From Rhodospirillaceae bacterium (lineage in GTDB: Bacteria > Pseudomonadota > Alphaproteobacteria > MPNO01 > UBA830): a DNA stretch of 33,865 nt. Shown piece after piece: positions 1,979 through 22,263 of this stretch. Where the stretch lies: the NCBI GenBank assembly GCA_002689465.1, contig NZGJ01000029.1:23848-57712 (forward strand), in the 5' to 3' direction. Numbering within the stretch: position 1 is the first letter of the stretch; each line of letters starts with the position of its first letter. The translations under genes were made by a program, and so were the position numbers. The notes below the pieces were generated by a model that worked only from the letters and a program-made list of their open reading frames with translations, ran no database searches and was not told the origin of the DNA.

Positions 1979-2029
1979 GGCTCTCAGTTTTGTCCAAAAT
2001 CAATGCTCTGACCAACTTGCCGAGCTTCC

Positions 2030-2058
2030 TTTAATTTAAAGCCGAATCACCCTATATT
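2030..2058 (+). promoter_or_regulatory. Candidate ssrA promoter
   Basis: TATATT at 2053-2058 matches five of six bases of a sigma-70 -10 element. Seventeen bases upstream, TTTAAT at 2030-2035 is a poor -35. Transcription would begin near 2065, just before a short inverted repeat (AGCTGGC at 2064-2070, GCCAGCT at 2073-2079) and the tmRNA acceptor piece. Inferred from spacing and position only. Confidence 0.35.
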
Positions 2059-2063
2059 AGAAG

Positions 2064-2445
2064 AGCTGGCTTGCCAGCTATGGTGATAAACGACTTGTGG
2101 AATAAACGGAGTGGACCCGGGGGCAGTACCCGGCGCCTCCACCAAACGTCCGACTTGGCCGGCTCCGCATAAAGGGTCCGCATTCGGTATTGGGGGCGAA
2201 ACAGGATCGACACACGTGTAAAGACTTGTCTTTTGCCCGGTATGGTTCCGCCGTTAGCGGGCCGTTATTACAAGTGCCAATGATAACGATTTGGCCCTCG
2301 CTGCTTAATTAAGCAAGCGCGGTCCGGGGGGGCACCGGGCAACAGAAGCCCCTCCACTAATTTCCGTACTCGGTTTCCAATTAGGAACGACAGAGGGGCC
2401 CCTATGCGGCCCAAGCGGTTGCGCTTGCGGTTCCGGCCCGCATGA
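2064..2445 (+). ncRNA. ssrA: Permuted two-piece tmRNA
   Basis: Transfer-messenger RNA for trans-translation, in the circularly permuted order typical of Alphaproteobacteria: the acceptor piece comes first, the tag-coding piece second. The acceptor piece ends at 2144 with a T-arm (CCGGG and CCCGG around a seven-base loop, about 2117-2133) and 3' CGCCTCCACCA. The coding piece starts at 2192 with GGGGGCGAAACAGGATCGAC. Its first seven bases pair with CGCCTCC of the acceptor piece; the third pair is G-U, the alanyl-tRNA synthetase identity element. The segment 2145-2191 is the spacer removed by processing. The tag frame is 2276-2308. The coding piece ends in stem-loops, the last about 2404-2443. 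The 5' boundary of the acceptor piece and the exact 3' end are estimates. Confidence 0.93.
2276..2308 (+). CDS. tmRNA proteolysis tag reading frame
   Basis: Ten sense codons and TAA inside the tmRNA coding piece. The resume codon is GCC at 2276; the encoded peptide is ANDNDLALAA, so with the alanine carried by tmRNA the tag is AANDNDLALAA. The N-terminal AANDN matches the part read by SspB adaptors and the C-terminal LAA matches the part read by ClpX. At eleven residues it equals the E. coli tag in length and is shorter than the Caulobacter tag (fourteen residues). Confidence 0.9.
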   Translation, partial: ANDNDLALAA

Positions 2446-2461
2446 CATAAGAGTCCTCGCC

Positions 2462-2953
2462 ATGTCCGAAGATATGATGGATTATCAGTCAATGGTTGAG
2501 CGCGCGATGAAGAACGTCGTCCGCGATGCCCTTTCGAAGGTTGGCGAAGATGGGCTCCCCGGCGAGCACCATCTTTACATTACCTTCAAAACACAGGAGC
2601 ACGGCGTCGAGATCACCGACCGGCTGATCTCTCAATACCCTGAAGAAATGACGATTGTTCTCCAATATCAATTCTGGGGTCTCAAAATTTCTGAAGATGC
2701 GTTTGAGATTACTCTCAGCTTCTCAGGCACGAACGAACGCCTGTATATCCCATTCGATGCCGTGGTCGGCTTTGCCGACCCTTCAGTAAATTTCGGCCTT
2801 CAGTTCAAAACAGCCGAAGCCGGCGAAATCAAGCCAGGCGCGATGCAAGACATTGGCGACGCCGACACGCAGCCTTTGACAGAAGACCGTGAAGGCAACC
2901 AGATAACCGGCGAAGTAGTTGCGCTGGACGCCTTTCGCAAAAAGAAAACCTAA
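2462..2953 (+). CDS. sspB: SspB-like ClpXP adaptor, alphaproteobacterial type
   Basis: Predicted 163-residue adaptor that tethers ssrA-tagged proteins to ClpX for degradation by ClpXP. The N-terminal ~115 residues match alphaproteobacterial SspB (GEHHLYITFKT, QFWGLKI, LYIPFDAVVGFADPS, NFGLQF); this is the dimeric tag-binding domain. An acidic, probably flexible linker follows. The C-terminal tail VVALDAFRKKKT resembles the short ClpX-binding peptide of this family. The start at 2462 is only about 16-18 bases after the last tmRNA stem-loop, and I see no terminator between them, so cotranscription with ssrA is likely. A weak SD (TAAGAG) precedes the ATG. Confidence 0.93.
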   Translation: MSEDMMDYQSMVERAMKNVVRDALSKVGEDGLPGEHHLYITFKTQEHGVEITDRLISQYPEEMTIVLQYQFWGLKISEDAFEITLSFSGTNERLYIPFDAVVGFADPSVNFGLQFKTAEAGEIKPGAMQDIGDADTQPLTEDREGNQITGEVVALDAFRKKKT

Positions 2954-2983: not shown

Positions 2984-4594
2984 ATGGTTGATGAGAATTT
3001 TCGCGAGATGTTCTCGCTCGGAGAAGACACCACGGAATATCGCAAACTGACATCCGATTTTGTCTCAACAGCAGAATTCGACGGCCTAGAAGTGCTCGTC
3101 GTCGATCCTGAAGGTATCAAACAGCTATCGGCTCAGGCGTTTTTCGATATCGCACATTACTTGCGACCAGGACACCTAGAACAGCTTAAGAAAATTCTCG
3201 ACGACCCCGAAGCGTCCGATAACGATCGTTTCGTTGCGCTCGATCTTTTGAAGAACGCCAACATTGCAGCCGGCGGGGTTCTGCCGATGTGCCAAGACAC
3301 GGGCACGGCCATCATCATGGCCAAAAAAGGTCAGAATGTCTGGGTAAAAGGCAATGACGAGGCTGCCATTTCAAATGGCGTCTTGAAAACCTATCAAGAG
3401 AGTAACCTGCGCTATTCGAACGTCGCACCGCTGTCGATGTTCCAGGAAGTGAATACCGGCAACAACCTGCCAGCACAGGTCGACATTTATTCTACAGAGG
3501 GCGATACCTATAAGTTTTTGTTCATCGCAAAGGGCGGGGGGTCAGCCAATAAAACATTCCTCTTCCAGCAAACACCTGCAGTCATGAACGAAGACCGGAT
3601 GGTTGCATTTCTGGATGAGAAAATCCGAACTCTAGGCACCGCCGCCTGCCCGCCCTATCATCTTGCGATCGTCATCGGCGGAACTTCGGCGGAGCTAAAT
3701 CTTAAAACAGTCAAGCTCGCTAGTACGCGCTATCTCGATAACCTGCCGACCCACGGAAACGAATACGGTCAGGCATTCCGCGATCAGAAAATGGAACAAA
3801 ATATTCTCGATCTGACCCGGCACATGGGCATCGGTGCGCAATTTGGCGGAAAGTATTTCTGCCACGATGTCCGCGTTATCCGTCTACCGCGCCATGGCGC
3901 CAGTGTGCCGATTGGGCTCGGCGTATCATGCTCGGCCGACCGGCAGGCTCTTGGTAAAATCACCAAAGAGGGTGTCTTCATCGAACAGCTGGAGATGAAC
4001 CCGGCAAAATATATGCCGGAAGTCCAACCGACACACCTCGCCGATGAAGTCGTCCATATCGACCTCAACCAGCCGATGGATGAAATTCGGAAAGTGCTTA
4101 GCGGCTGCCCAGTCAAAACCCGGCTATCGCTCACCGGTTCAATGATCGTCGCGCGCGATGCCGCCCACGCGAAAATCAAAGAACGCCTCGACGCTGGCGA
4201 AGAAATGCCAGACCATTTTCGCAATAACGCTATTTATTACGCCGGCCCGGCGAAGACACCTGCAGGCTATGCGTCAGGCTCGTTCGGGCCGACCACTGCA
4301 GGTCGAATGGATTCTTATGTGGAGGCGTTTCAGGCGAGAGGCGGCAGCCTCGTCATGCTGGCCAAGGGCAATCGCTCGAAGCAGGTCACCGAAGCCTGCA
4401 AAACATACGGCGGTTTCTATCTCGGGTCGATTGGCGGCCCAGCAGCACGGCTTTCGCAGGACTGCATCAAGAAAGTCGAGTGCATTGAATATCCCGAACT
4501 CGGGATGGAAGCAATCTGGCGGATCGAAGTTGAGGATTTTCCCGCCTTTGTCGTCGTTGATGACAAAGGCAACGATTTCTTCGCAAATGTCTGA
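2984..4594 (+). CDS. Fumarate hydratase, class I (iron-sulfur)
   Basis: Interconverts fumarate and (S)-malate in the TCA cycle using an oxygen-sensitive [4Fe-4S] cluster; cytoplasmic. At 536 residues it matches the fused alpha-beta FumA/FumB form. The three cluster cysteines are visible at Cys103 (MCQDTGTA), Cys222 (TAACPPYH) and Cys316 (GVSCSADRQ), at the same spacing as in E. coli FumA. The C-terminal beta domain carries GPTTAGRMD and KGNRSKQV. The start is the ATG at 2984, with the G-rich stretch at 2970-2975 as a plausible but displaced SD. It follows sspB after 30 bases and probably begins or continues an operon with the DNA glycosylase and reductase downstream. No sign of truncation. 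Confidence 0.96.
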
Positions 4595-21775: not shown

Positions 21776-22179
21776 GGTCCAGACGGTCGGATGGCCGCCT
21801 TTCGGCAATGGGGAAACCCGTCGGGGGGAGGAAAGTCCGGGCTCTACGGAAACACGGTGCCGGTTAATGGCCGGCGGGGGCGACCCCAGGGAAAGTGCCA
21901 CAGAGAGCAGACCGCCGTCTGTTTTGAGACGGTAAGGGTGAAAGGGTGTGGTAAGAGCGCACCGCGTCGCCGGTAACGGCGATGGCAAGGTAAACCCCAC
22001 CGGGAGCAAGACCGAATAGGGACGGCACGCGAACGATAGTTTGCAAGCGGGTTTCTGCGCTGCTGTCCGGGTGGGTCGCGATGAGGGGTCCGGTGACGGG
22101 CGCCCCAGATGAATGGCCATCTATCGTCTAGGTTTCGGTCTGGGCGTGGACAAAACCCGGCTTACAGACCGTCTGGACC
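21776..22179 (+). ncRNA. rnpB: RNase P RNA, bacterial class A
   Basis: Catalytic RNA of RNase P, which matures the 5' ends of tRNAs (and of tmRNA). The ends are set by a perfect 13-bp P1 helix: GGTCCAGACGGTC at 21776-21788 pairs with GACCGTCTGGACC at 22167-22179, giving about 404 nt. Conserved regions are visible: GAGGAAAGTCCGG at 21828-21840, CAGGGAAAGTGCCACAGAGA near 21887-21906, GGTAAACCCCACCGGGAGCA near 21990-22010, and ACAAAACCCGGCTTACAGA in the 3' part. It lies between the amidase gene and the dcw cluster, a familiar alphaproteobacterial position. Confidence 0.97.
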
Positions 22180-22263
22180 TGATATCTAACTTTGATAATG
22201 GCGTGAATTTCGCCAAACACAACCTTTGCTCCATGCTGACGCTCCCTTGGTGAACCCAAAATA

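Follow-up and report, generated by a model that had tools for sequence, protein, structure and literature searches.

A conserved ssrA-sspB gene order in Alphaproteobacteria and a putative sspB promoter between the two genes at a Rhodospirillaceae locus

In the window analyzed here, a stretch of 33,865 nucleotides from a Rhodospirillaceae bacterium, the gene for tmRNA (ssrA), which attaches degradation tags to stalled proteins, is followed by sspB, the gene for the predicted adaptor that brings tagged proteins to ClpXP. This order raises the question of whether the RNA and the protein are made from one transcript, as the original prediction proposed, with excision of the tmRNA creating the 5' end of the sspB mRNA. 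The identity of both genes was confirmed. An alphaproteobacterial permuted tmRNA was found by Rfam at 2026-2358 (+), matching RF01849 over its full length (model positions 1-355 of 355) with 258.6 bits against a gathering threshold of 50, and the general permuted tmRNA model, RF04321, matched at 2082-2308 with 138.7 bits.

The permuted order of the tmRNA was borne out by the position of its parts in the RF01849 alignment. The tRNA-like acceptor piece (2063-2144, +) ends in a CCA at 2142-2144, its 5' end being an estimate taken from the 82-nt piece of S. meliloti (PMC2873474). It is followed by an intervening segment that would be lost in processing (2145-2191, +), flanked by the CCA end on one side and the 5' acceptor strand on the other, and by the mRNA-like coding piece (2192-2358, +), whose first nucleotides, GGGGGC at 2192-2197, pair with a GCCUCC in the acceptor piece, the third pair being a G.U. 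The tag reading frame and its stop occupy 2276-2308 (+); ARAGORN reads ANDNDLALAA, giving a complete tag of A-ANDNDLALAA. The full-length match, permuted order, CCA end and tag frame are all shared with the two-piece tmRNAs of Caulobacter and Sinorhizobium, and although the coding piece is shorter than that of S. meliloti (about 167 nt versus 214 nt), nothing essential differs. The RNA is predicted to be cut into two pieces and to serve in trans-translation. Upstream, a TATATT at 2053-2058 (+) falls within the conserved region at the 5' side of RF01849 and is present at the 5' end of that model in 50 of the genomes checked; we infer that it is the -10 element of the tmRNA promoter, with a start site expected near 2064-2066. 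RNase P is expected among the enzymes that process permuted tmRNA. Elsewhere in the window, Rfam placed a bacterial class A RNase P RNA at 21779-22180 (+) with 303.7 bits.

The sspB open reading frame (2462-2953, +) encodes 163 amino acids and matches PF04386 over the tag-binding domain (E=1.9e-42, 145.3 bits against a cut-off of 27). We take DUF1321 to be the former name of this family. The best solved relatives are 2nys from Agrobacterium (E=2.4e-36) and the SspB-alpha structures 2qas (E=1.6e-33) and 2qaz (E=1.7e-32), SspB-alpha being reportedly the proteolytic adaptor of Caulobacter described by Lessner and colleagues in 2007. The window protein matches the folded domain of all three, and only sequence differences from the known structures were seen. 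Its C-terminal tail, VVALDAFRKK, has the counterpart VVSLDAFRKK in 2nys; such a tail serves SspB in ClpX binding, the role predicted for it here. A gene with the ClpX zinc-binding domain is present in the same partial assembly, and an SmpB gene was not found in that assembly, which is 67% complete. The ssrA-sspB pair is ordinary housekeeping trans-translation equipment, and the window taken alone is an ordinary finding.

Its interest lies in the comparison with other genomes, since in most of the Alphaproteobacteria the RNA that carries the degradation tag adjoins the gene for its reader, and the tag sequence varies with the presence or absence of that reader. We sampled 191 alphaproteobacterial genomes from across the families of the class, no species being represented twice, and found SspB in 171 and the alphaproteobacterial tmRNA in 179. 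Among the matches listed, 131 genomes had both, and in 92 of these sspB followed the tmRNA within 300 nt and in the same orientation, in line with the predicted adjacency; in the remaining genomes the two were within 3 kb (16), on different contigs (12) or elsewhere (11). The median distance from Rfam end to Pfam start in the 92 adjacent loci was 102 nt. By our own estimate, two genes placed at random in a 3-Mb genome would be adjacent in this way with a chance of roughly 5e-5, and the observed frequency is far above this. The flanking genes vary more: thyA is found upstream in 31 of 70 named loci, fumarase follows in 12 of 72, and a simple pattern places the tmRNA within 0.9 kb of sspB in at least 52 of 78 named loci. 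The adjacency may already have been noted in the first description of the alphaproteobacterial SspB.

A functional pairing of tag writer and adaptor, also part of the original prediction, holds up, as does the conserved adjacency. Of the 97 genomes with a called tag and known SspB status, 91 have SspB, and 84 of these carry a tag starting with ANDN; of the six lacking SspB, a small group that includes two members of one genus, one does (Fisher p 7e-5). ARAGORN may have misread some of the unusual tags. This distribution suggests that the tag decays once its adaptor is lost, and ANDN would be the half of the tag that SspB should bind, for which its retention alongside SspB is indirect support. 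The non-ANDN tags of genomes without SspB (G164, locus L218; G046, L214; G092, L215; G112, L216; G127, L217) include, for example, AKSDYAEYALAA and ANESYAIAA.

Whether one transcript spans both genes depends on the 103-nt spacer between them (2359-2461, +). The last tmRNA stem-loop had been placed near 2443, but the Rfam match ends at 2358, and in the two closest relatives (L032 and L033) conservation of the tmRNA stops at about 2361. The hairpin at 2403-2443 therefore lies in the spacer; it was rejected both as a part of the tmRNA and as a terminator, its 5' arm not being conserved in L032 and L033 and no T run following it. The claim that no terminator is visible stood: a consensus scan found no intrinsic terminator in 2359-2462, no T run follows the window tmRNA as it does in some relatives with short spacers, the spacer is not more strongly folded than its shuffles (z -0.62), and the pairs obtained when the window, L032 and L033 spacers are folded to a consensus are mostly broken or unsupported. 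Since no intrinsic terminator is seen, read-through from ssrA is possible.

Contrary to the expectation that nothing else lies between the genes, the spacer carries a conserved, promoter-like element. When the window was aligned with L032 and L033, about 55 nt past the tmRNA could not be aligned and were followed by about 46 nt that are nearly identical up to the ATG. Addition of seven more distant MAG loci reduced the invariant positions to CTTGC-GT, TAA-A-T, a few single bases and the ATG. The SspB proteins of the ten loci are about 47-77% identical to that of the window, and the spacers are otherwise unalignable, giving a footprint consensus of CTTGCGGT-N16/17-TAAnAnT in the last ~46 nt ahead of sspB. 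The hexamers TTGCGG and TAAnAn are separated by 17-18 nt in these loci, with TAAnAn ending 8-10 nt before the ATG. Because the ten loci mostly have common gene neighborhoods, the conservation may partly reflect recent ancestry. In the window, this putative promoter (CTTGCGGT, 2424-2454, +) consists of TTGCGG at 2425-2430, N17 and TAAGAG at 2448-2453. The footprint reads as an sspB promoter that would start transcription at about position 2460 and yield an mRNA that is leaderless or nearly so; a Shine-Dalgarno core is absent before the window sspB. With a promoter-like element directly before the ATG and no Shine-Dalgarno core, excision of the tmRNA is not needed to make the 5' end of the sspB mRNA.

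Generic searches gave weak scores. A sigma70 scan found nothing in the window spacer, where the best promoter hit had p=0.09 only. For the long spacers pooled, a fixed promoter matrix gave z=1.5, with 13 of 200 shuffles equally good, and expectation maximization (EM) scored 28.3, the null being 19.0 +/- 4.5 with a maximum of 28.2, so that the pooled promoter signal is modest; EM on the short-spacer loci was uninformative, locking onto the tmRNA 3' end. A search over all genomes for a general leaderless -10 signature gave no significant TA enrichment at the leaderless distance (p=0.12), and a search of the genome for further copies of the motif returned the sspB site only, no more than a reversed control. 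The heat-shock sigma factor RpoH was considered as the reader of this motif and not adopted. More than 60% of sigma70 -10 elements in several alphaproteobacteria lack a T at -7 (PMC8407463), which makes TAAGAG acceptable as a -10 element. In addition, for the DUF1321 gene ZMO1504 of Zymomonas mobilis, the single or predominant mapped start leaves a 5' UTR of 0 nt (PMC7566282); the comparison with the window sspB, whose transcription is likewise predicted to begin at its start codon, covers family name and start site. Finally, clear sspB promoters are present in some other lineages with long spacers, for example TTGACT-N16-TAGTCT in L059, L060, L088 and L104.

The relatives differ in how much room they leave for such a promoter. 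We read 81 adjacent loci in full, picking start codons by rule, so that single spacers may be off. The distance from tmRNA end to ATG was at most 45 nt in 31 of them (~38%; minimum 8 nt, in one locus) and at least 60 nt in 42. Shine-Dalgarno cores were enriched in the tight group (20 of 31 versus 11.4 +/- 2.2 in shuffles) and not in the loose group (19 of 42 versus 16.6 +/- 2.8). This and the following comparisons of loci treat genomes as independent although some are related. A TTTTT occurred within 12 nt past the tmRNA 3' end in seven of the 31 tight loci, against 0.5 expected from shuffles, and might act as a leaky terminator. In these seven genomes (G005, G169, G179, G017, G068, G091 and G047) the T run comes right after the last tmRNA helix and sspB follows 22-41 nt on. 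The first 8 nt past the tmRNA have a pyrimidine fraction of 0.87 where no sspB follows and 0.62 where it does (p=3e-6; 16 versus 81 loci, excluding one locus truncated at a contig end and three that have an additional 3' hairpin), and the pyrimidine-rich tail of the former is terminator-like. Plain T runs were also tried as a mark of non-adjacent tmRNAs and did not separate the groups, whereas pyrimidine content did. The three loci with an extra hairpin, of a form like GGGGAGC..CAACAGAAGCTCCC, past the Rfam end are L193 (G004), L195 (G011) and L207 (G138), in which sspB is not adjacent; because the hairpin follows the Rfam end, the RF01849 model ends too early there.

The reading that we favor for the window, and consider reasonably probable, gives each gene its own promoter, with some read-through in addition and with products that act together. 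The ssrA gene would be transcribed from the TATATT promoter at 2053 and its RNA processed into two pieces, while sspB would be expressed mainly from the conserved TTGCGG-N17-TAAGAG element (2425-2453) as an mRNA that is leaderless or nearly so; ssrA read-through, with no intrinsic terminator in between, would add some further sspB mRNA. The tmRNA would then add A-ANDNDLALAA to its substrates, and SspB would bind the ANDN half and carry the protein to ClpX. A closely overlapping account, which differs in the share ascribed to read-through, has leaky transcription from the strong ssrA promoter supply basal sspB expression, with regulated expression coming on top from the promoter of sspB. This account has nearly even chances: it fits both the missing terminator and the conserved promoter-like element, and the TTTTT near the tmRNA 3' end of the seven short-spacer loci would suit a partial terminator, but the window has no such T run.

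It is rather unlikely that the window instead holds a single RNA-protein operon, in which a precursor from the ssrA promoter has the tmRNA cut out of it, leaving an sspB mRNA with a leader of ~100 nt and coupling the amounts of writer and adaptor. The E. coli ssrS-ygfA dicistron, with the 6S RNA encoded ahead of a protein, is a precedent for a stable RNA and a protein encoded in tandem on one strand; in the window, sspB apparently has a promoter to itself. The lack of an intrinsic terminator in the window spacer favors an operon, as do the tight loci with their enriched Shine-Dalgarno cores, the lack of such enrichment in long spacers, and the terminator-like tails of tmRNAs that have no sspB after them. 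The window, however, is of the long-spacer form, with a promoter-like footprint before the ATG and no Shine-Dalgarno core, and the tmRNA precursor of S. meliloti is reported to be unstable, which would limit the sspB yield from such a precursor (PMC2873474). The prediction of one transcript thus holds in part: the spacer is open to read-through, but a separate sspB promoter is probably present at 2425-2453, and a shared transcript, plausible in the tight-spacer relatives, is possible but not needed in the window. We think it improbable that the conserved 46 nt are an RNA element, acting in translation control or as a processing site, rather than a promoter. They would also sit in any read-through leader, and CCCTTG..CAAGGG pairing is possible in L040, L041, L046 and L055; this pairing is absent from the clade of the window, however, and neither the poorly supported three-sequence consensus fold nor the shuffle-like folding of the window spacer speaks for such an element.

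Taken together with the favored two-promoter reading of the window, the relatives seem to follow two transcriptional architectures under one conserved gene order. In the tight loci, the 8-45 nt past the tmRNA are too few to hold a separate promoter, so that co-transcription is hard to avoid. We tentatively propose, giving the idea slightly less than even chances, that sspB mRNA is derived by processing in tight loci, while loose loci, including the window, have gained or kept a promoter abutting the ATG and produce leaderless sspB mRNA. If so, a single promoter in the tight loci would set a ratio of high tmRNA to low SspB. Loci in which the pair must share a transcript and loci in which sharing is unneeded form a natural comparison, through which a possible co-regulation of tagging and degradation capacity becomes testable in cultured species.

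A class I fumarase gene (2984-4594, +) begins 30 nt past sspB in the window, and an ssrA-sspB-fumarase transcript with fumarase as a further member is possible. A class I fumarase likewise lies 30-70 nt after sspB in L032, L033, L036, L040, L041, L042, L044, L046 and L055. In most of this set, the window included, thyA and folA lie upstream of ssrA, and in the window they are divergent.
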